This document shows, piece after piece, positions 3 to 17,603 of a DNA stretch of 64,000 nt (the first letter of the stretch is position 1; every line of letters begins with the position of its first letter). The position numbers and the translations under genes are program-made. The stretch is taken from assembly GCF_004339595.1 (NCBI RefSeq), contig NZ_SMFU01000008.1, positions 434,001 to 498,000 of the forward strand, in the 5' to 3' direction. The notes under the pieces were generated by a model. It did no database searches. It saw only the letters and a program-made list of their open reading frames with translations, and had not been told where the DNA came from. Source of the stretch: Marinobacterium mangrovicola. GTDB taxonomy: Bacteria; Pseudomonadota; Gammaproteobacteria; Pseudomonadales; Balneatricaceae.

Positions 3-1136
3 CTATGTCAAAATAATGAGAGTGATATAGGGTTTAAAATATTTGATGAGGTTTCCTTTATTGACCCCGCTTTGATTGTGAACGAATTTGATACAGTTAA
101 TTCGTTCGCACAAAAAAATGATGATTATGCCTGTTTCTTTCCATGCTTTTTTCCAAGAAACTCTTACCTTAAGTCCATTGCAAGTGATAGCGGTTCAGGT
201 TATCAAGACTCTCTAGAAATAAAGAGGCTAGTTAGCACTGTAAAAGATTATGAGATTTTTTTGAGAGGCTGTTCTGATCAAGAAATAGTAAAAAAAGACG
301 ATTGCTTTTATCTCTGGATAGGTATTACGGGCCAAAAAAGATCTTGGGTTGAGCAGAGCTCTGGTTATGCACAGATTATCAATTATCTTAGTAATTCGAT
401 CGATAAAAAATTGGTCGTTTTTGTTGATGGTTGGACAGCTGTTCATGGCTCAAAAGCTCAAGGACAAGTTTGTGATGAAGATAATGCCGTAGCTTCAGAG
501 ATATTTTTAAATCTTAATTGCCATGATAAGGTAGAGTTTGTTTCTTTGGTGGGGTTCGATTACGCATCCAAGATATCTGCGAGTAAAGTGGTCGATTTTT
601 TTATATCGAATGGCGGGGCTGGTGCGACCGTTCCACTGAGAATCGCGCAGCTGCCTGGTGTTATTCATTCTAATTCTAGCCTGTTTACATTTCCTGATAA
701 TTATCCCAGCAGTATTAAAATTATTAATAAGCCGCCTTTAGTTTCTGATTTGGTGGGGGAAGATAATTTGATTTCAGATAAAACATCTTACTCTATAGCA
801 TGGGATGTTGTTTTAAATAAGCTTCTTGATGCTATTTTTGAACTTAGAGGTGAGAGTTTTATCAATAGAGATTTAGAGGAATGTAAAGCTAGGTCGATCG
901 AATTTATAGAATCTAGGCTAGGAAAATCAATAGGATACTTTCCCGATATCTTTCGGACGATTGCTGTTTTTTTTGAAATGCGAAAAGATATGTTTTGGGC
1001 TTATAAAGCGATCTCTTTAGCACATGAAGCGCGACCATCAGGGGATTTCTTGATTAATAAAAAGAAAAAGTATTGTAAATACCTCGATTTTGAAATTATT
1101 TCCTATCAAGACTATAAAAGAAGGCACAGTGCATGA
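3..1136 (+). CDS. Polysaccharide-locus protein of unknown function, 5'-truncated
   Basis: The reading frame is open from the first bases of the window, so the gene starts upstream; a TTG at 72 is only an internal codon. About 377 residues are visible. I do not recognise the family. A segment around window positions 600-690 (NGGAGATVPLR, then LPGVIHSN) has the glycine-rich look of a nucleotide-sugar loop in GT-B glycosyltransferases, and the C-terminal 50 residues look helical. The DNA is clearly more AT-rich than the next gene, which suggests acquisition from another source. It overlaps the next gene by 4 bp (ATGA), so the two are translationally coupled. A glycosyltransferase role is inferred mainly from context. 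Confidence 0.6.
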   Translation, partial: LCQNNESDIGFKIFDEVSFIDPALIVNEFDTVNSFAQKNDDYACFFPCFFPRNSYLKSIASDSGSGYQDSLEIKRLVSTVKDYEIFLRGCSDQEIVKKDDCFYLWIGITGQKRSWVEQSSGYAQIINYLSNSIDKKLVVFVDGWTAVHGSKAQGQVCDEDNAVASEIFLNLNCHDKVEFVSLVGFDYASKISASKVVDFFISNGGAGATVPLRIAQLPGVIHSNSSLFTFPDNYPSSIKIINKPPLVSDLVGEDNLISDKTSYSIAWDVVLNKLLDAIFELRGESFINRDLEECKARSIEFIESRLGKSIGYFPDIFRTIAVFFEMRKDMFWAYKAISLAHEARPSGDFLINKKKKYCKYLDFEIISYQDYKRRHSA

Positions 1137-2731
1137 GGCTACTCGATTGTACGTTTAGGGATGGTGGTTACTATAACTCCTGGGATTTCTCCACTGATTT
1201 AATCCACCAGTACCTTGAGGCTATGTATTCTGCTGGGGTGGATGTGGTCGAACTTGGCTTTCGTACGCTCAAGAATAATGGATTTCAGGGCCCTTGTGCC
1301 TTCACTACCGATGAGTTTATCCGCAGCTTGACGATACCGGACGGGCTGAAGATTGGTGTCATGGTCAATGGCAACGAGCTGGTGGGTGGGATGCCTCAGC
1401 AAGAGGCGCTGGCACGGCTATTCCCCGATGCAGCGGCGGATTCCCCGGTGGATCTGGTACGTATTGCATGCCATGTGTATGAATTTGAGCAAGCACTTCC
1501 TGCCGTTACCTGGTTGAAGGAACGCGGCTACCAAGTTGGTTTTAACCTGATGCAGGTGGCGGATCGCACCGAAGACGAGGTTAAGGCGCTCGCTCGTCTG
1601 GCCTCAGCCTACCCGATGGATGCGCTCTACTTCGCCGACAGTATGGGCAGCATGAACCCTGGTCAGGTTGCACAGATTATTCATTGGTTCCGCAGCGAGT
1701 GGACCGGCGCCATGGGCATCCATACCCATGATAATTTGGGGCTGGCGCTCTCCAATACCCTCCGGGCGCTGGATGAGGGCGTAACCTGGGTCGACTCCAC
1801 TGTCACTGGGATGGGCCGTGGGCCGGGCAATGCCCGCACTGAAGAGCTGGCTATCGAGATAGCCGCACGGAGCGGCAAGTCGGCCAATATGGTGCCGCTG
1901 ATGGTGCTGCTGCGTGAGCACTTCAAGCCGATGCAGGCCCATTATGGCTGGGGCTCCAATCCCTACTACTACTTGGCGGGTAAGTACGGCATTCACCCTA
2001 CCTATATTCAGGAGATGCTCGGCGACTCTCGCTACAGCGAGGAAGATGTTTTGGCGGTAATCGAGCATCTACGAGTGGAGGGTGGCAAGAAGTTTAATCT
2101 TAACACCTTGGATGCAGCACGACATTTCTACCGGGGCGAGCCAAAGGGACGCTGGACTCCCAAGGAGCGATTTGCCAGACGTGAAGTGTTGTTATTGGGT
2201 ACTGGTCCAGGTGTGGCCCGGCACCGTAGCGCGTTGGAGCGCTATATCCGCGACAAGAAGCCGTTAGTGTTGGCCCTCAACACCCAGAGCGCTATTGATG
2301 CGGAATTGATAGATCTTCGCGTAGCCTGTCATCCAGTTCGCTTACTGGCAGACTGTGAGGCTCATACGCGGCTGCCTCAGCCGCTGATTACTCCTTACAG
2401 CATGCTGCCGCCAGACGTCCGTGACTCACTTGGGAATAAGGAGGTGCTGGATTTCGGACTAAAAGTGCAGGCTGATAGCTTTGTGTTTAAGGATAAGCAC
2501 TGCACCTCGCCCACCTCGCTGGTCGTGGGCTATGCGCTCGCGGTAGCTACTAGCGGTAATGCCTCTCGCATCCTGATGGCCGGCTTCGACGGCTATAGTG
2601 CAGACGATCCGCGTAGTCGCGAGATGCACCAGCTCCTGGAGCAGTACCAAGATTCTGAGGGGGCTCTACCGATTAAGTCCATCACTCCGACACGGTATGG
2701 GGTACAGAGCGAGTCGGTTTACGCCCTTTAA
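1133..2731 (+). CDS. HMGL-type pyruvate aldolase fused to a C-terminal Rossmann-like domain
   Basis: The protein has 532 residues. Residues 1-330 form an HMGL/DmpG-type TIM-barrel aldolase: the N-terminus has DCTFRDGGYY (metal Asp and Arg) and residues near 195-200 have the HTHDN metal-binding signature. Such enzymes join or split pyruvate and an aldehyde. Residues from about 349 begin a second domain with LLLGTGPG, and near 460 it has TSPTSLVVGYALA followed by ILMAGFDGY. That pattern resembles DUF115/MptE-like and GT42 sialyltransferase folds. The gene is followed by a cytidylyltransferase and a HAD phosphatase, so I infer it makes a ulosonic acid (a sugar acid built from pyruvate) for the capsule. 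The aldolase fold is well supported; the substrate is not known. Confidence 0.8.
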   Translation: MRLLDCTFRDGGYYNSWDFSTDLIHQYLEAMYSAGVDVVELGFRTLKNNGFQGPCAFTTDEFIRSLTIPDGLKIGVMVNGNELVGGMPQQEALARLFPDAAADSPVDLVRIACHVYEFEQALPAVTWLKERGYQVGFNLMQVADRTEDEVKALARLASAYPMDALYFADSMGSMNPGQVAQIIHWFRSEWTGAMGIHTHDNLGLALSNTLRALDEGVTWVDSTVTGMGRGPGNARTEELAIEIAARSGKSANMVPLMVLLREHFKPMQAHYGWGSNPYYYLAGKYGIHPTYIQEMLGDSRYSEEDVLAVIEHLRVEGGKKFNLNTLDAARHFYRGEPKGRWTPKERFARREVLLLGTGPGVARHRSALERYIRDKKPLVLALNTQSAIDAELIDLRVACHPVRLLADCEAHTRLPQPLITPYSMLPPDVRDSLGNKEVLDFGLKVQADSFVFKDKHCTSPTSLVVGYALAVATSGNASRILMAGFDGYSADDPRSREMHQLLEQYQDSEGALPIKSITPTRYGVQSESVYAL

Positions 2732-2794
2732 TATCTCCTATTTCTCGATAAGCTTTTTTGCTATCCGGTGCAATTTGTTAAACAAGAGGTTTGT

Positions 2795-3541
2795 ATGCGC
2801 ACTGTCGTTATTATTCCAGCCCGCTATGGTTCCAGCCGCTACCCGGGCAAACCTTTGGTTTCATTACTGGAAAAACCGATGGTCCTCTGGGTGGCCGAGC
2901 TGTCGGCAAGAGCCGTAGGCGTCAAGAACGTTTATGTTGCTACCGAGGACTCTCGTATCGCAGAGGTTGTTGAGGCCGCTGGTTTTCAGGCAGTAATGAC
3001 CACCGACGATGCTCTTACTGGCACCGACAGGCTGGCTCAGGCGGCCGAGCAGGTCGAAGCGGATATCTACATTAATGTGCAGGGCGATGAGCCGTTGGCT
3101 GATCCTGCTGATATTTTAAAGGTGCGCGACGCTAAATTGGCCCACATGGACGCTATTATCAACGGTTTCAGTTGGGTAGGCGATAACGAGGATCCGCAAA
3201 GCGTTAACATTCCCAAGGTGATTACCAACGAGCGCGACGAGCTGGTTTACATGTCCCGGACGGCCTTGCCGGGGTTTAAGGACGCCAAGTGCGCGCCTAG
3301 CCGCTACAAGAAACAGGTCTGCATCTACGCCTTTACTCGGGAGGAACTCGCCGCCTTTCGTGCCTTTGGCCGCAAAAGCGAGCTGGAATATTCGGAAGAT
3401 ATCGAGATCCTTCGTTTCCTAGAACTAGGCACAAGCATCCGCATGGTTGAAACCCGACCGGGCAGCCTCGCAGTGGATGTACCTGAGGATGTCGCCAAGG
3501 TTGAGTCTGCACTGCGCCAGGCCATCGAGGTGCAGGTATGA
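2795..3541 (+). CDS. CMP-Kdo synthetase-like cytidylyltransferase (KdsB/KpsU family)
   Basis: This 248-residue protein would transfer CMP from CTP to a 3-deoxy-ulosonic acid such as Kdo. It has the family N-terminus IPARYGSSRYPGKPL that binds CTP, and NVQGDEPL, the Mg-binding segment. Length matches KdsB and capsule-specific KpsU (about 246-250). I chose the ATG at 2795 because AAGAGG lies 5 bases upstream and the protein then begins exactly as the family does; a GTG at 2768 would add nine residues. It sits between the aldolase and the HAD phosphatase, and overlaps the latter by 4 bp. The substrate could be Kdo for KpsC or a variant acid made by the neighbouring aldolase. Confidence 0.88.
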   Translation: MRTVVIIPARYGSSRYPGKPLVSLLEKPMVLWVAELSARAVGVKNVYVATEDSRIAEVVEAAGFQAVMTTDDALTGTDRLAQAAEQVEADIYINVQGDEPLADPADILKVRDAKLAHMDAIINGFSWVGDNEDPQSVNIPKVITNERDELVYMSRTALPGFKDAKCAPSRYKKQVCIYAFTREELAAFRAFGRKSELEYSEDIEILRFLELGTSIRMVETRPGSLAVDVPEDVAKVESALRQAIEVQV

Positions 3542-4203
3542 GGTCTTCGGTAAACCTCTACACCACGCTGGTCTTCGACTGCGACGGAGTAGTGTTGAAC
3601 TCCAACAAAGTCAAGACCGAGGCGTTCTATCAAGCAACGTTACCCTTCGGGCAAGCCGCAGCTAGTGCCATGGTCGACTACCACGTCGCTAACGGAGGAA
3701 TCTCTCGCTACAAAAAGTTCGCCCACTTTCTTGAGCAGATTGTGCCAATTCATGCCGAGCATCAAGGGCCTGATATCGACGGTTTGCTGCAGGCTTATGC
3801 CAGTCATGTGCGTGAGGGGCTGCTGAGCTGTGAGTTGTCCCCGGCGCTTGAAATGTTGCGCCGGCAGATCCCGGATACGCGCTGGTTGATCGTTTCCGGC
3901 GGTGACCAGACCGAACTACGCGATGTGTTTACCCAGCGAGGCATTGCCGATTGGTTCGACGCTAGTATATTCGGCAGTCCAGACACCAAGGATGAGATCC
4001 TGGCGCGGGAGCTCGCCTCTGGCAACATCCGGCAACCGGCTCTGTTTCTTGGTGATAGCAAGTATGATTACAAGGCTGCCACTGCTGCCGGGCTGGATTT
4101 CGTGTTTCTGAGTGACTGGAGCGAGGTGGTTGATTGGCATGCTTGGGTTGCTGAACAGGGTATAGATTCGGTCAACTCTATTCAGTCATTGGCGGAAATT
4201 TGA
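3538..4203 (+). CDS. HAD-superfamily phosphatase, phosphoglycolate-phosphatase-like
   Basis: The protein has 221 residues. Motif I is FDCDGVVL (Asp14 nucleophile, Asp16), motif II is the SGG segment near residue 122, and motif IV is LFLGDSKYD near residue 167. The cap between them is helical. It starts inside the stop of the cytidylyltransferase (ATGA overlap). By position it could remove a phosphate from a ulosonic acid phosphate before CMP activation, the role KdsC plays in Kdo synthesis, although it looks like the beta-phosphoglucomutase/Gph branch rather than KdsC. The HAD assignment is firm; the substrate is inferred. Confidence 0.82.
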   Translation: MRSSVNLYTTLVFDCDGVVLNSNKVKTEAFYQATLPFGQAAASAMVDYHVANGGISRYKKFAHFLEQIVPIHAEHQGPDIDGLLQAYASHVREGLLSCELSPALEMLRRQIPDTRWLIVSGGDQTELRDVFTQRGIADWFDASIFGSPDTKDEILARELASGNIRQPALFLGDSKYDYKAATAAGLDFVFLSDWSEVVDWHAWVAEQGIDSVNSIQSLAEI

Positions 4204-4210
4204 GCGATAA

Positions 4211-6550
4211 ATGACCAAAACATTACCGTTGCAAGAAGCTGCTCATGCTATTGCTAAGGCGTCTGTTCTGGCAGGACGCAAGGATGTCTCAAGTAACTTG
4301 AAGCACTTGCTCGATAAATTGGGGACCGGCGCAGACGAATCTTGGAACGCTGAAGTTGCAGGGAGCGATATTTGTGAAGAGTTTTTTGAGCTGCAGTCCC
4401 GCGTCTGCTTCCCTATTGGACTGTCGGCCTGGTACGCCTTTGATGAAGGGTTAGGAGTTTACCATCGAGAATCTTTGGCGGAATTTACATATTCTGACGG
4501 CGATGAAGTAGAAGACCGCATCTTTAACGCCGTTAAAAGTGCGGAGCAGGTGGGTTTATATTCCAAAGAATTGCTGAAACACCAGATCGACTGGCCTTCG
4601 GAGTACCATCTTTCGGCAGATAGGGCTAATCTGCTTCGACCGTTCGCGAATCAACTTGCTTTTGGCCATGTTCTTGAACTCGGGTGCGGTTGTGGTGCTG
4701 TTACCCGTTACCTCGGGGAACTAGGCGCTCGCGTGACTGCGGTCGAGGGGAGTCCCAGGCGTGCAGCCATTGCTGCTGAGCGCTGTCGGGACCTTGCGAA
4801 TGTTCAGGTGGCGGTTGATAAAATTGAAAGCTTCCCGATCCAGGGCAAATATGATGTGGTTACCCTCATCGGGGTGTTGGAGTACTCTCGTGTGTATGTT
4901 GAGGGGGATGATCCGGTTCAGCAGGTACTGGAGCGTGCGCGAAGTTACCTTAAACCTGGGGGGGTACTGATTGTTGCCATCGAGAATCAGCTTGGTCTGA
5001 AATACTTCGCTGGTGCGCCAGAAGACCACGGTGTTGGCGTTATGTCGGGCATCAATGACTTGTACACTAATGATTCGCCGGTCACCTTTGGTCGTTTGGA
5101 ACTGGAGCAGCGCGCCGCTAGCGCTGGTTTCAGCCACGCAGAAACCTTTTCTCCCTTCCCTGATTACAAGCTCCCGAACTTTATTGTTGCTCCCGAGGCG
5201 GCTGAAAAAGCACCGCATACTTGGAACCTCGGCACTTTATTGGCGAGTTCCGTGTCTGCAGACCGGCAGCGGAATAAGAATTCACTGTTTTCTCTGCGCC
5301 GAGCTTGGCCGTTGGTGGCGAAGAATCGTTTAGTGGAAGACCTTGCCAATTCTCATTTGATGTTGGCCCATACTCAACCTGGCAATACCTGGCAGGAAAA
5401 AGATTCACTCGCTTATTACTATTCCCCGAAAAGAGGTGCTTCGACGAGCCAGGAATTAGCGTTCCATAAGAACACGTCAACAGAATCAGGCATATCCGTT
5501 TGGCGCCGGAATATTGGCAATACTCTACTTACCGCCGGGGATGCCGGGTGGCGAGAAGAGCCTTATCAACCCGGTGAGGTCCACAGCGACCTATTGCAGG
5601 CTGTTTTGCAACGCCCGGGTTGGACATTGGACATGGTATGCGAGTGGGCAGAGACCTGGATTACCAGCTTGCGGCGAGCAGTAATGCCAGAATGCGTTGA
5701 GGGACTGGTGCCTGAAGGGTGGCAAGGCTATCAGACATGGCTCCCTGCGCACTTTCTGGATGCAGCACCCCGAAATCTTATAATTAAGCCGGATGATTCA
5801 ACTGTATGGATTGACCTGGAATGGAAGCGGGAGCATCCGTTACCGATTGAGCTGGTTGTGTTCCGGGGATTGTTTGTGACGTTTTACGGTATAAAAACTG
5901 TAGCTGCACCAGCCAATACGGAATTGCTGGATGGCAATGTGTTGTTGCACCGGGTAATGGAACATTTCGGCTACAAGGCGACTGCCGGCGACTTACGGCT
6001 GTTTTCGAAAGTCATGCACAGTATCGCGTGCCATGCGGAAGGCCGAGTGCCGAGTGAGGGGGGGGCTTCGCTCGATTCTGTGAGATTGCCGGTTTGGAGT
6101 ACCAGAACCCTGAAGCCAACGCTCACCGCAGATTGCACGGTTTATTGGCGTGCCCAGAAGCAAGGGTTCAGTGAGGAGCGCAGTTGTCACCACCCGCTTG
6201 CGCTGGATGGCAATAAGTATACGTTTGGTCTGCACCTGCCTGAAGCCTTAGGCGAGGGAGGTGAGCTAAGACTGGACATATCCAATCGTCCCGGTGTTTT
6301 TTTGGTGGACGCGCTAGAGTTAGTGAATGCAGATGGAAACTGTATCTGGCAGTGGGCACATGATGGTGAGGGCATGACAGGCGTCGCTCAAATGAAATTA
6401 CTTCCCGGGCAGGGCGGTTCCACTTCTGTCTTCCTGTCTGAAGGGTATGATCCCCAGTGCATTCTGCGCATACCTGAGCCTGTTTTTGAACAGTTGGCTG
6501 CTGGCACGGTGTTACGCTTGGTAGTGGCTGGTGCGTCCTTTCAGTTGTAA
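4211..6550 (+). CDS. Large SAM-dependent methyltransferase with kinase-like and beta-rich C-terminal regions
   Basis: This 779-residue protein has a class I methyltransferase domain at about residues 130-330: VLELGCGCGAVTRYL binds SAM, and AVEG and LIGVLEY follow in order. A middle part near residues 515-540 has DAAPRNLI then WIDLEW, like the catalytic loop and metal-binding acidic pair of the APH/choline-kinase fold. The last 150 residues look like a beta-sandwich, with LRLDISNRPGVF resembling accessory modules of polysaccharide glycosyltransferases. A methyltransferase plus kinase in one polypeptide recalls WbdD, which caps O-antigen chains. That comparison is inference from architecture. 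It follows the HAD gene by 7 bp in the same transcription unit. Confidence 0.78.
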   Translation: MTKTLPLQEAAHAIAKASVLAGRKDVSSNLKHLLDKLGTGADESWNAEVAGSDICEEFFELQSRVCFPIGLSAWYAFDEGLGVYHRESLAEFTYSDGDEVEDRIFNAVKSAEQVGLYSKELLKHQIDWPSEYHLSADRANLLRPFANQLAFGHVLELGCGCGAVTRYLGELGARVTAVEGSPRRAAIAAERCRDLANVQVAVDKIESFPIQGKYDVVTLIGVLEYSRVYVEGDDPVQQVLERARSYLKPGGVLIVAIENQLGLKYFAGAPEDHGVGVMSGINDLYTNDSPVTFGRLELEQRAASAGFSHAETFSPFPDYKLPNFIVAPEAAEKAPHTWNLGTLLASSVSADRQRNKNSLFSLRRAWPLVAKNRLVEDLANSHLMLAHTQPGNTWQEKDSLAYYYSPKRGASTSQELAFHKNTSTESGISVWRRNIGNTLLTAGDAGWREEPYQPGEVHSDLLQAVLQRPGWTLDMVCEWAETWITSLRRAVMPECVEGLVPEGWQGYQTWLPAHFLDAAPRNLIIKPDDSTVWIDLEWKREHPLPIELVVFRGLFVTFYGIKTVAAPANTELLDGNVLLHRVMEHFGYKATAGDLRLFSKVMHSIACHAEGRVPSEGGASLDSVRLPVWSTRTLKPTLTADCTVYWRAQKQGFSEERSCHHPLALDGNKYTFGLHLPEALGEGGELRLDISNRPGVFLVDALELVNADGNCIWQWAHDGEGMTGVAQMKLLPGQGGSTSVFLSEGYDPQCILRIPEPVFEQLAAGTVLRLVVAGASFQL

Positions 6551-15623: not shown

Positions 15624-17603
15624 ATGCGAGTTGGTTTCATGGTAAAGGGGCTGGGTCAGACTCCTTGGCTGGCCGAGTTTCTGGAAGCGCCCTGTGCACG
15701 GATTTCTGGCTGGTCAAGCCTTTATCGATTCACCCATGTTGCTGGGTGGGGCTTGAAGCCCAGTGCGATTAGGGCGCGGGAGTGTGCTCAGAAACTGAGT
15801 GTGCCCTATCTGTCCCTGGAGGATGGCTTCCTGCGCTCTCTGGGGTTGGGCGTTGACGGCGCTCCTCTCCATAGTCTTATCGTTGACAGTAGTGGTATCT
15901 ATTACGATGCCACTCGCCCTTCCGATCTTGAAACGCTGATACGCGAGCAGGCACCGGACCCGATTCAACTGCAGAGGGCCGGTGATTGCATCGATATGTT
16001 GAAGCGCTATCGCCTCTCCAAATATAACCACGCGCCAGATCGATCGCCGGCTGAACTGGAAACCAAGCAGTCCAATGTCTTGGTCGTGGATCAAACCGCG
16101 GGTGATGCCTCCATAGAGTACGGCTTGGCCAGCGCGGCCTCCTTCAGTGAAATGCTTAATGCGGCCGTTGCCGAAAACCCGGGTGCTGAAGTGCTGGTTA
16201 AGGTGCATCCGGATGTGATTGCTGGCAAAAAGCAGGGGCACCTGCTGGAGCAGGCACGCGCCTTGGGCTGCCGCTTGATTGGGGATGACCTTAATCCCTG
16301 GGCATTACTGGATCTTGTAGATCGTGTCTATGTCGTGACCAGTCAGCTCGGTTTTGAAGCGCTGCTGGCCGGCAAAAAGGTGCATTGCTTCGGGATGCCT
16401 TTCTACGCGGGTTGGGGCCTGACTACAGATCGGCAGAGCTTGGAGCGTAGGGGCGTCAAACGCAGTCTTGAAGCCCTCTTTTATGCTGCCTATCTGCAGT
16501 ACTGTCGCTATATCAACCCTTACACCGGGAAGCGATGCGAGTTTGAGGATACGGTTGCCCTGATCGCTGATCAAAAACGCGCTCGGGATCGCTTCGCTGG
16601 TAGCTGGGATGCGATCGATTTTGCAGGGTGGAAGCGTGCGTTTATCGGTCGGTTTCTTGGGCTGGGTGCTCAAGTGGAGTGGCGGCAGCCGGCTTCGGAA
16701 GTGTCGGCACCCAAAGTGTTAGCCTGGGCCTCCAAGCTGGATTCGGCGCTTATTTCCGGTTGCCGGGAGCGGGGGCAGGAACTTTGGCGGATAGAAGACG
16801 GTTTTATCCGCTCAGTGGGGCTGGGTGTGGATTTGGTCGATCCGCTATCGCTGGTGATCGATTCTCGCGGTATCTACTACGATGCATCTGCCCCCAGTGA
16901 TCTGGAGTATATGCTGGAACATGATGAGTTCTCGCCGGATCTGTTGCGACGGGCTGCGAGGCTGAGGCAGCGCCTCGTTGCATTGAAAATGTCCAAGTAC
17001 AATGTGGGGATTCAACAGCAGTTGGATCTACCGAAAGATCGCAGGATTGTGCTGGTGCCGGGGCAGGTGGAAACCGATGCATCCATTCGCACCGGTTCTC
17101 CCCAGATGCAGACGAATCTGGAGTTGCTGCGCGCCGTGCGGCACGCCTGCCCGGATGCCTATATCATCTATAAACCTCATCCGGATGTGGTATGCGGTGG
17201 CCGCAAAGGCGAGATACCCGGGCAGGACTATTTTGATCTTGAAGTTCAGGATCTGGCGATGCCGGACCTGCTGGAGCAGATCGATGAGGTACACACACTC
17301 ACTTCACTGACCGGGTTTGAAGCGCTGCTTCGCGGTATTCCCGTTCATGTCTGGGGGCTGCCTTTTTATGCGGGCTGGGGGCTGACAGAGGATCATATTG
17401 ACTGTCCGCGTCGCACTCGCCGCCGCACTCTGGATGAGCTGGTGGCCGCAACGCTGATCCGCTATCCGCTGTATGTCGATCCGGATAGCGGGGATCAGGT
17501 CAACGCTGAAACCGCGGTGGATATTCTTCAGCAGCACCGGCAAAAGAAAAGAAAAACGTCCTTAAGAACCCATGTCTGGCGCCGGATTCGGAAACGGGTT
17601 TAA
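15624..17603 (+). CDS. kpsC: Capsule beta-Kdo transferase KpsC-type, two tandem domains
   Basis: The 659-residue protein matches KpsC, which adds alternating beta-Kdo residues to lysophosphatidylglycerol to build the lipid anchor of ABC-exported capsules. It is an internal duplication: SLEDGFLRSLGLGV then YYDAT in the first half, and RIEDGFIRSVGLGV then YYDAS in the second. Each half also has KVHPDV or KPHPDV and a PFYAGWGL motif. Full KpsC is about this length. CMP-Kdo would be the donor. No kpsS or kpsMTED gene is present here. Its stop overlaps by 4 bp the stop of the opposite-strand permease gene. Confidence 0.93.
   Translation: MRVGFMVKGLGQTPWLAEFLEAPCARISGWSSLYRFTHVAGWGLKPSAIRARECAQKLSVPYLSLEDGFLRSLGLGVDGAPLHSLIVDSSGIYYDATRPSDLETLIREQAPDPIQLQRAGDCIDMLKRYRLSKYNHAPDRSPAELETKQSNVLVVDQTAGDASIEYGLASAASFSEMLNAAVAENPGAEVLVKVHPDVIAGKKQGHLLEQARALGCRLIGDDLNPWALLDLVDRVYVVTSQLGFEALLAGKKVHCFGMPFYAGWGLTTDRQSLERRGVKRSLEALFYAAYLQYCRYINPYTGKRCEFEDTVALIADQKRARDRFAGSWDAIDFAGWKRAFIGRFLGLGAQVEWRQPASEVSAPKVLAWASKLDSALISGCRERGQELWRIEDGFIRSVGLGVDLVDPLSLVIDSRGIYYDASAPSDLEYMLEHDEFSPDLLRRAARLRQRLVALKMSKYNVGIQQQLDLPKDRRIVLVPGQVETDASIRTGSPQMQTNLELLRAVRHACPDAYIIYKPHPDVVCGGRKGEIPGQDYFDLEVQDLAMPDLLEQIDEVHTLTSLTGFEALLRGIPVHVWGLPFYAGWGLTEDHIDCPRRTRRRTLDELVAATLIRYPLYVDPDSGDQVNAETAVDILQQHRQKKRKTSLRTHVWRRIRKRV

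Follow-up and report, generated by a model that had tools for sequence, protein, structure and literature searches.

A fusion-aldolase gene trio of Marinobacterium mangrovicola as a candidate phosphoenolpyruvate-independent cassette for a CMP-activated ulosonic acid other than Kdo

The well-known routes to ulosonic acids activated with cytidine monophosphate (CMP), namely those of 3-deoxy-D-manno-oct-2-ulosonic acid (Kdo) and of sialic, pseudaminic and legionaminic acids, begin with a synthase that depends on phosphoenolpyruvate (PEP). A gene trio of Marinobacterium mangrovicola raises the question of whether such a sugar could instead be started from pyruvate by an aldolase. The trio lies on the forward strand of a 64,000-nucleotide stretch of DNA (contig NZ_SMFU01000008.1, positions 434,001 to 498,000; hereafter the window), and comprises genes for a 532-residue fusion aldolase (P0001, 1133–2731), a 248-residue KdsB-like cytidylyltransferase (P0002, 2795–3541) and a 221-residue HAD-IA phosphatase (P0003, 3538–4203). 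An earlier, sequence-only reading had placed three overlapping or adjacent genes at 1133–4203; these open reading frames (ORFs) were confirmed, and its domain assignments all lie above the Pfam cut-offs, with HMGL-like PF00682 scoring 100.7 bits for P0001 (cut-off 29), CTP_transf_3 PF02348 115.7 bits for P0002 (cut-off 22.6) and HAD PF00702 41.1 bits for P0003 (cut-off 26.4). That reading recognized the trio, but overlooked both the C-terminal domain fused to the aldolase and the complete classical Kdo gene set of the host. On balance, we consider it probable that the trio is a PEP-independent cassette for a CMP-activated 3-deoxy-2-ulosonic acid other than Kdo.

Is the trio more than a chance grouping? 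It is, because the same genes recur together in relatives from other phyla. A scan of genome contigs, a check that the sequence-only reading had named and that bore out its expectation of a conserved trio, found 67 loci with relatives of the fusion aldolase in Gammaproteobacteria, Alphaproteobacteria, Bacillales, Nesterenkonia, a Synechococcus, a metagenome-assembled genome (MAG) of Flavobacteriales and other hosts; the closest relatives of the window aldolase in the genome collection belong to Vreelandella and Halomonas. A cytidylyltransferase gene follows on the same strand within 2.3 kb of the aldolase in 62 of the 67 loci (61 by script, plus L011 by translation), and starts no more than 63 bases after the aldolase end in 56 (55 by script, plus L011). 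A single gene intervenes in six loci (L008, L010, L032, L038, L063 and L064), being a HpaI-type aldolase gene in L008 and L038 and the HAD gene itself in L063 and L064. The five loci without a downstream cytidylyltransferase are three that end inside the aldolase at a contig end (L030, L069 and L070), L062, where a KdsB-like gene lies divergently upstream of the aldolase, and L056, a recombinant locus. HAD homologues occur in 57/67 loci; a script rule (same strand, start within 3.5 kb after the aldolase end) counts 53 of these, missing four: in L063 and L064 the HAD gene overlaps the end of the aldolase gene, in L027 it is on the other strand, and in L038 it lies at a distance of 5.4 kb. The distribution is patchy, with the trio in 7 of 116 genomes of the host's family, host included, and the aldolase gene is apparently mobile across species. 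In Leisingera, three plasmids carry a match that covers at least 80% of the aldolase protein; the annotation consulted, that of one plasmid, names an aldolase catalytic domain-containing protein, a 3-deoxy-manno-octulosonate cytidylyltransferase and a HAD family hydrolase, with sulfotransferases nearby.

The slot behind the aldolase is filled by two enzyme families, KdsB-like in 39 loci and NeuA-like in 23 (22 by script, plus L011). Single linkage at E 1e-40 puts the 22 script-found NeuA-like enzymes in the same group, and the one that was scanned, from L009, has a PseF match in NCBIfam. An aldolase tree was built for 57 of the 67 loci (36 KdsB-like and 21 NeuA-like), leaving out aldolases with under ~480 aligned residues or without a typed cytidylyltransferase; along it the slot type changes 10 times, with at least seven changes forced by well-supported branches. 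Because the slot is kept through at least seven forced switches of enzyme family, the aldolase step apparently has to be followed by cytidylylation. Furthermore, since both families have ulosonic-acid-activating enzymes among their sequence relatives, one step seems to have been taken over by different recruits, and the trio offers a natural case of two cytidylyltransferase families repeatedly replacing each other behind one aldolase.

This pattern bears on an explanation without a linear pathway, in which the aldolase makes a short 4-hydroxy-2-oxo acid or is a Claisen-type synthase, the cytidylyltransferase activates a non-ulosonic compound, and the genes merely share a cluster. DRE-TIM enzymes are catalytically diverse, and the P0001 barrel also matches homocitrate and isopropylmalate synthase models. 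In addition, nucleotidyltransferases are reported in phosphonate biosynthesis in the accessible part of one study (PMC6697681). The best-scoring NCBIfam and solved-structure matches of P0001 are nevertheless aldolases, and neither the retention of a cytidylyltransferase beside the aldolase despite repeated change of family nor the ulosonic-acid roles of relatives of both families sits well with a mere shared cluster, which we judge unlikely.

If the trio makes a CMP-ulosonic acid, is that acid Kdo? The assignment of P0002 to a distinct subfamily draws on NCBIfam models, a residue comparison and a tree. P0002 passes the CMP-Kdo synthetase subfamily models NF009905 (268 vs 255 bits) and NF003952 (226.3 vs 193 bits) and falls below the kdsB equivalog TIGR00466 (128.2 vs a cut-off of 155.2 bits), a weak criterion, as the enzyme beside KdsA in locus L068 also scores under it (134 bits). 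Its nearest solved structure is the CMP-Kdo synthetase 1gq9, which we take to be KpsU. Trio and host enzymes share R10, R15, K19, Q96, D98, R155 and D228 (at least 95% of 40 trio rows and at least 90% of 20 host rows), residues to which we ascribe catalytic roles with cytidine triphosphate and Mg. Elsewhere the two sets differ: position 174 is Q in 39/40 trio rows vs H in 18/20 host KdsB-family rows, position 176 is C in 40/40 vs G in 20/20, position 205 is I in 38/40 vs Q in 18/20, and F180 stands in trio enzymes where host KdsBs mostly have Y. The canonical H-x-G-x-Y motif and the E-Q of the KdsB Kdo-binding domain, positions that presumably contact Kdo directly, are not kept in the trio enzymes. 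The changed positions 174, 176, 180 and 205 fall in the part matching the KdsB C-terminal domain, which binds Kdo in the Aquifex enzyme according to the accessible part of its description (PMC3149649). The trio KdsB-like enzymes form one clade of 40 rows (support 99/97), partly by choice, as trio rows were picked by similarity to P0002 at E under 1e-40. The 20 host rows comprise 17 of 18 over-cut-off KdsB-family loci (L092, without an ORF, was dropped), L097 (under cut-off, from the Bacillus host of L043), L001 (own genome) and the Kdo-set enzyme of L068; 11 other under-cut-off KdsB loci were left out, and those of them placed by coordinates are trio enzymes.

The surroundings of the trio keep Kdo in consideration. 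A Poly_export protein, an ABC ATPase and a PF05159 (KpsS/KpsC-type) gene at C2:403872 lie upstream of the window, where KpsM, KpsE and rhamnose-gene names were recognized by eye; downstream in the window are genes for a dTDP-4-dehydrorhamnose epimerase, a sulfotransferase-family protein, a KpsC-like protein (15624–17603, forward strand; PF05159 Capsule_synth, 317.8 bits) and sulfate activation. Based on this gene content, the trio sits in a Kps-type locus whose capsule is probably sulfated; the KpsC-like gene is taken as context only. The trio might then be a capsule-dedicated supply of ordinary CMP-Kdo, KpsU/KpsF-like, for a KpsC/KpsS poly-Kdo linker, with the aldolase as a spare Kdo route. 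The KpsC- and KpsS-like genes, the 1gq9 match and the passing of NF009905 are all in keeping with this, as is the trio enzyme of L068, which outscores the enzyme beside KdsA on CMP-Kdo models (NF009905, 289 vs 244.7 bits). In addition, the two Bacillus Kdo-set enzymes also lack the His at position 174 (F in both). Because of these Bacillus enzymes and the higher-scoring L068 trio enzyme, neither position 174 alone nor the hidden Markov model scores settle the substrate of the trio enzymes.

The Kdo genes of the hosts point away from that supply role. The M. mangrovicola genome carries kdsA, a gene of the KdsB family (C1:883794) whose product has the canonical motif, kdsC and kdsD/kpsF, so the trio would be an additional pathway, and the word 'alternative' in the sequence-only reading was imprecise. 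Among the hosts tested (28 of the 67 loci were taken), kdsA is not over its cut-off in three of three Nesterenkonia, three of five Bacillales and one Flavobacteriales MAG, and kpsF is over its cut-off in two of eight Gram-positive hosts, the same two that have kdsA; these absences refer to curated cut-offs on assemblies of unstated completeness, with L044 and L052 taken from MAGs. Locus L068 (Bacillus sp. ISL-41) carries, in order, genes for an MptE-like protein, a KdsB-family enzyme, KdsA, KpsF, KdsC and two MptE-like proteins, and then the trio with its own KdsB-like enzyme; as Kdo set and trio adjoin, two ulosonic-acid pathways appear to lie side by side. Similarly, in Amphritea a KdsB-family enzyme that carries the H-x-G motif is encoded ~6 kb away from the trio enzyme. 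Given the Kdo set of the M. mangrovicola host, the six of eight Gram-positive hosts with neither kdsA nor kpsF over cut-off, the adjoining sets of L068, and the divergence of the trio enzymes in the Kdo-binding domain with catalytic residues kept, the trio product is probably not Kdo. A mere Kdo duplicate was rejected as the best reading, on the Gram-positive hosts with no kdsA or kpsF over cut-off, L068, Amphritea, the motif change and the NeuA-like enzymes that fill the slot in 23 loci, and we give the CMP-Kdo supply little credence. The earlier suggestion that a pyruvate aldolase leads to a non-Kdo CMP-ulosonic acid gains partial support from the filled slot, the hosts with no kdsA or kpsF over cut-off, L068 and the KdsB divergence.

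Could the aldolase barrel perform the first step? The nearest solved structure to P0001 is 3dxi, titled as the N-terminal domain of a putative aldolase from Bacteroides vulgatus, and 3dxi is also the top Foldseek match of the whole-protein model (pLDDT 91.7), aligned over the barrel (residues 1 to ~330). Residues R9, D10, H197 and H199, which comprise the Asp of an RD motif and an HxH and which we read as a metal site, are invariant in 45/45 aligned rows. For P0003, the HAD-IA model TIGR01549 is above its cut-off and the KdsC-type TIGR01670 gave no match at E 0.01; its HAD catalytic-type residues D14, D16, S120, K151, D173 and D177 are conserved in at least 56 of 57 aligned copies. Together, the conserved metal-site-type and HAD residues suggest working enzymes. 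No full P0001 paralogue was found in the host genome, where four other profile matches are partial (45–91 bits). A stand-alone relative of the barrel occurs on a Paraburkholderia symbiosis plasmid (L111:5261-10809) amid short-chain dehydrogenase/reductase genes, a phosphoserine aminotransferase gene and a HAD-IA gene, suggesting a further pathway that uses the same barrel type.

A different enzyme could form the ulosonate in two loci, L008:7642-9709 and L038:7617-9060, where a gene for a HpaI/HpcH-type aldolase and a divergent NeuA-like gene come after the fusion aldolase (the call derives from a Pfam scan in L008, to whose protein the L038 copy is 69% identical). Extended to a general explanation, the HpaI-type aldolase would make the ulosonic acid where it is present, and the fusion protein would act mainly through its C-terminal domain, its barrel having another role or none. 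Insofar as a homologue was found in only 2 of the 67 loci, and the invariant R9, D10, H197 and H199 argue for a working barrel, we regard this as very improbable.

The barrel ends near residue 330, and residues ~345–532 (2165–2728) form a further domain that is conserved in an alignment with 20 relatives, although the window protein gave no Pfam match there at E 0.1. PF01973 (MptE-like) is matched by 6 of the 21 aligned members with E up to 10 (best 3.5e-6), the window copy not among them, and this model has no match in the host genome at E 0.001. A profile of the domain finds Methanocaldococcus jannaschii HPPK (8sd5, E 0.0013), and hhalign against five stand-alone MptE-like members gives E 1.4e-4 (probability 53). 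The predicted model of the domain (pLDDT 95.5) was matched by Foldseek to SteA (6.8e-5), M. jannaschii HPPK (1.6e-3) and human ST8SiaIII (4.3e-3; prob 0.99, TM score 0.45 by query length), and no Cst-II entry is among the 50 Foldseek matches listed. The accessible part of one report likens the Maf_flag10 domain (pfam01973) of Maf, a flagellin glycosyltransferase, to the sialyltransferase Cst-II (PMC11339370). Because of this likeness and the Foldseek and PF01973 matches, the added domain is predicted to have the fold of the MptE/Maf/sialyltransferase group, one used for handling CMP-ulosonic acids; any catalytic role of the domain would be hypothetical. Beside the Kdo set of L068 (L068:300-5937), which is a Gram-positive Bacillus set, the three MptE-like (PF01973) proteins may be transferases for that set.

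The pathway envisaged has four steps. The barrel of the fusion aldolase would join pyruvate to a phosphorylated aldose from central metabolism, giving a 3-deoxy-2-ulosonic acid phosphate; the HAD enzyme would remove the phosphate; the cytidylyltransferase would make the CMP-sugar; and the sugar would enter the capsule polymer, perhaps with the C-terminal, sialyltransferase-like part of the fusion protein assisting. What each enzyme does, which aldehyde is used, how many carbons the product has and that it ends up in the capsule are all inferred. No further gene family is near-universal beside the trio, the next commonest, epimerase-type, occurring in 18 loci, which suggests a housekeeping aldehyde such as erythrose-4-phosphate, ribose-5-phosphate, glyceraldehyde-3-phosphate or a hexose phosphate, with no choice among them.

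This lack of a further partner also weighs against the cassette, as do the L068 scores, the His-less Bacillus enzymes and the possible HpaI-type ulosonate formation described above, together with several other findings. A P0003-like HAD was not found in 10 of the 67 loci (L030, L069, L070, L056, L018, L067, L060, L061, L062 and L065), the first three of these being contig ends, and kdsA is over its cut-off in 21 of the 28 hosts tested. P0001 scores 102.8 bits against the 4-hydroxy-2-oxovalerate aldolase model TIGR03217, missing the cut-off of 286. Its Tyr13, which is Tyr in 45/45 rows, aligns with the His of the RDGMH motif of DmpG-type enzymes, a His that we take to be catalytic in 4-hydroxy-2-oxovalerate aldolases, and we know of no enzyme activity for the aldolase subfamily to which P0001 belongs. 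Lastly, the catalytic His of Cst-II-type sialyltransferases stands behind the place equivalent to GFDGY, and no invariant or near-invariant His follows GFDGY in 45 aligned rows.

If the proposed cassette is real, its pyruvate-aldolase reaction would be a new entry into CMP-ulosonic acids. It would predict an undescribed sugar acid in the capsules of salt-loving Gram-negatives and the surface polymers of some Gram-positives, and would provide a three-gene marker for finding the route. A bolder version, which we hold to be doubtful, is that this is a third, PEP-independent CMP-ulosonic route beside those of KdsA and NeuB, spread horizontally in Gram-negatives and Gram-positives, in which the sialyltransferase-fold domain passes on the product of its own pathway, so that one protein would both start and end it. 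By title and start of abstract, the open-access literature, as opposed to print more widely, yielded no description of an HMGL-type aldolase in ulosonic acid synthesis; the word 'aldolase' was not found in the accessible parts of PMC11766843 and PMC11641403.

The layout of the genes adds to this picture. The trio looks like one operon: the second and third genes overlap by 4 bases (3538–3541), and a 63-base gap separates the aldolase and cytidylyltransferase genes, with AAGAGG preceding the ATG at 2795. Upstream on the same strand, the P0004 ORF (3–1136), open at the window start, overlaps the aldolase gene by 4 bases (1133–1136) and probably belongs to the same operon. Neither Pfam at E 0.1 nor NCBIfam at E 0.01 gave it a match, and its family is not assigned; similar ORFs occur in 10 loci (blastp, E 1e-5), and in seven of these the ORF overlaps the start of the aldolase gene or stops close to it. 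Downstream, also on the forward strand and considered as context only, a gene at 4211–6550 encodes a methyltransferase domain (PF08242, 58 bits) with a long C-terminal part, and was matched among the trio loci compared only by the window's own copy in L002.

Other loci show rearrangements. Halomonas alkaliantarctica carries two diverged trio copies within ~30 kb (L006 and L012; NZ_JHQL01000003.1, 98974-112563 and 115435-129030), and in L029 and L057 (Vreelandella azerica and Thiorhodospira sibirica) the aldolase gene is broken into two ORFs. L056 has lost the C-terminal part of the aldolase and carries a NeuB fusion after it, which looks like the exchange of one ulosonic-acid module for another. 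Specifically, a 514-residue protein (L056:7667-9208) has NeuB at residues 256–497 behind an N-terminal domain with a GKGASV motif, and by eye a NeuA-like gene comes next; when this N-terminal domain and the C-terminal part of the aldolase were compared by profile, the similarity was too weak to call. In the Nesterenkonia hosts, NeuB matches lie inside long frames of 533–613 residues (G001:C1:188575, G002:C2:246729 and G003:C67:28236), which are perhaps NeuB fusions like that of L056.

How does the trio compare with known systems? The DmpG/BphI 4-hydroxy-2-oxovalerate aldolases belong to the same barrel family and provide the next structure chains after 3dxi, but P0001 is far below the family cut-off, has Tyr for His after RDG and carries an extra C-terminal domain, and the flanking genes P0004 and P0005 matched no dehydrogenase family in Pfam or NCBIfam. 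The Maf/MptE (PF01973) and Cst-II-type sialyltransferase domains are probably similar in fold to the C-terminal domain of the aldolase, whereas the window domain is fused to an aldolase, is weakly similar in sequence and is without the conserved His after GFDGY. The classical Kdo pathway (KdsD/KpsF, KdsA, KdsC and KdsB/KpsU) likewise uses a KdsB-fold cytidylyltransferase and a HAD phosphatase, and the trio's Kps capsule locus is a further likeness. In contrast to that pathway, the trio has an HMGL-type aldolase and not the PEP-dependent KdsA, a HAD enzyme of IA type that does not match KdsC at E 0.01, and an altered motif in the Kdo-binding domain, and its cassette lacks an arabinose-5-phosphate isomerase. 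Finally, the nonulosonic acid pathways (NeuB/PseI/LegI, then NeuA/PseF) are approached by the NeuA-like form of the cassette, which has a PseF-related enzyme in the slot (L009), and by the NeuB fusion that stands at the same place in L056; the trio differs from them in having, in place of NeuB, a condensing enzyme of the pyruvate-aldolase type.

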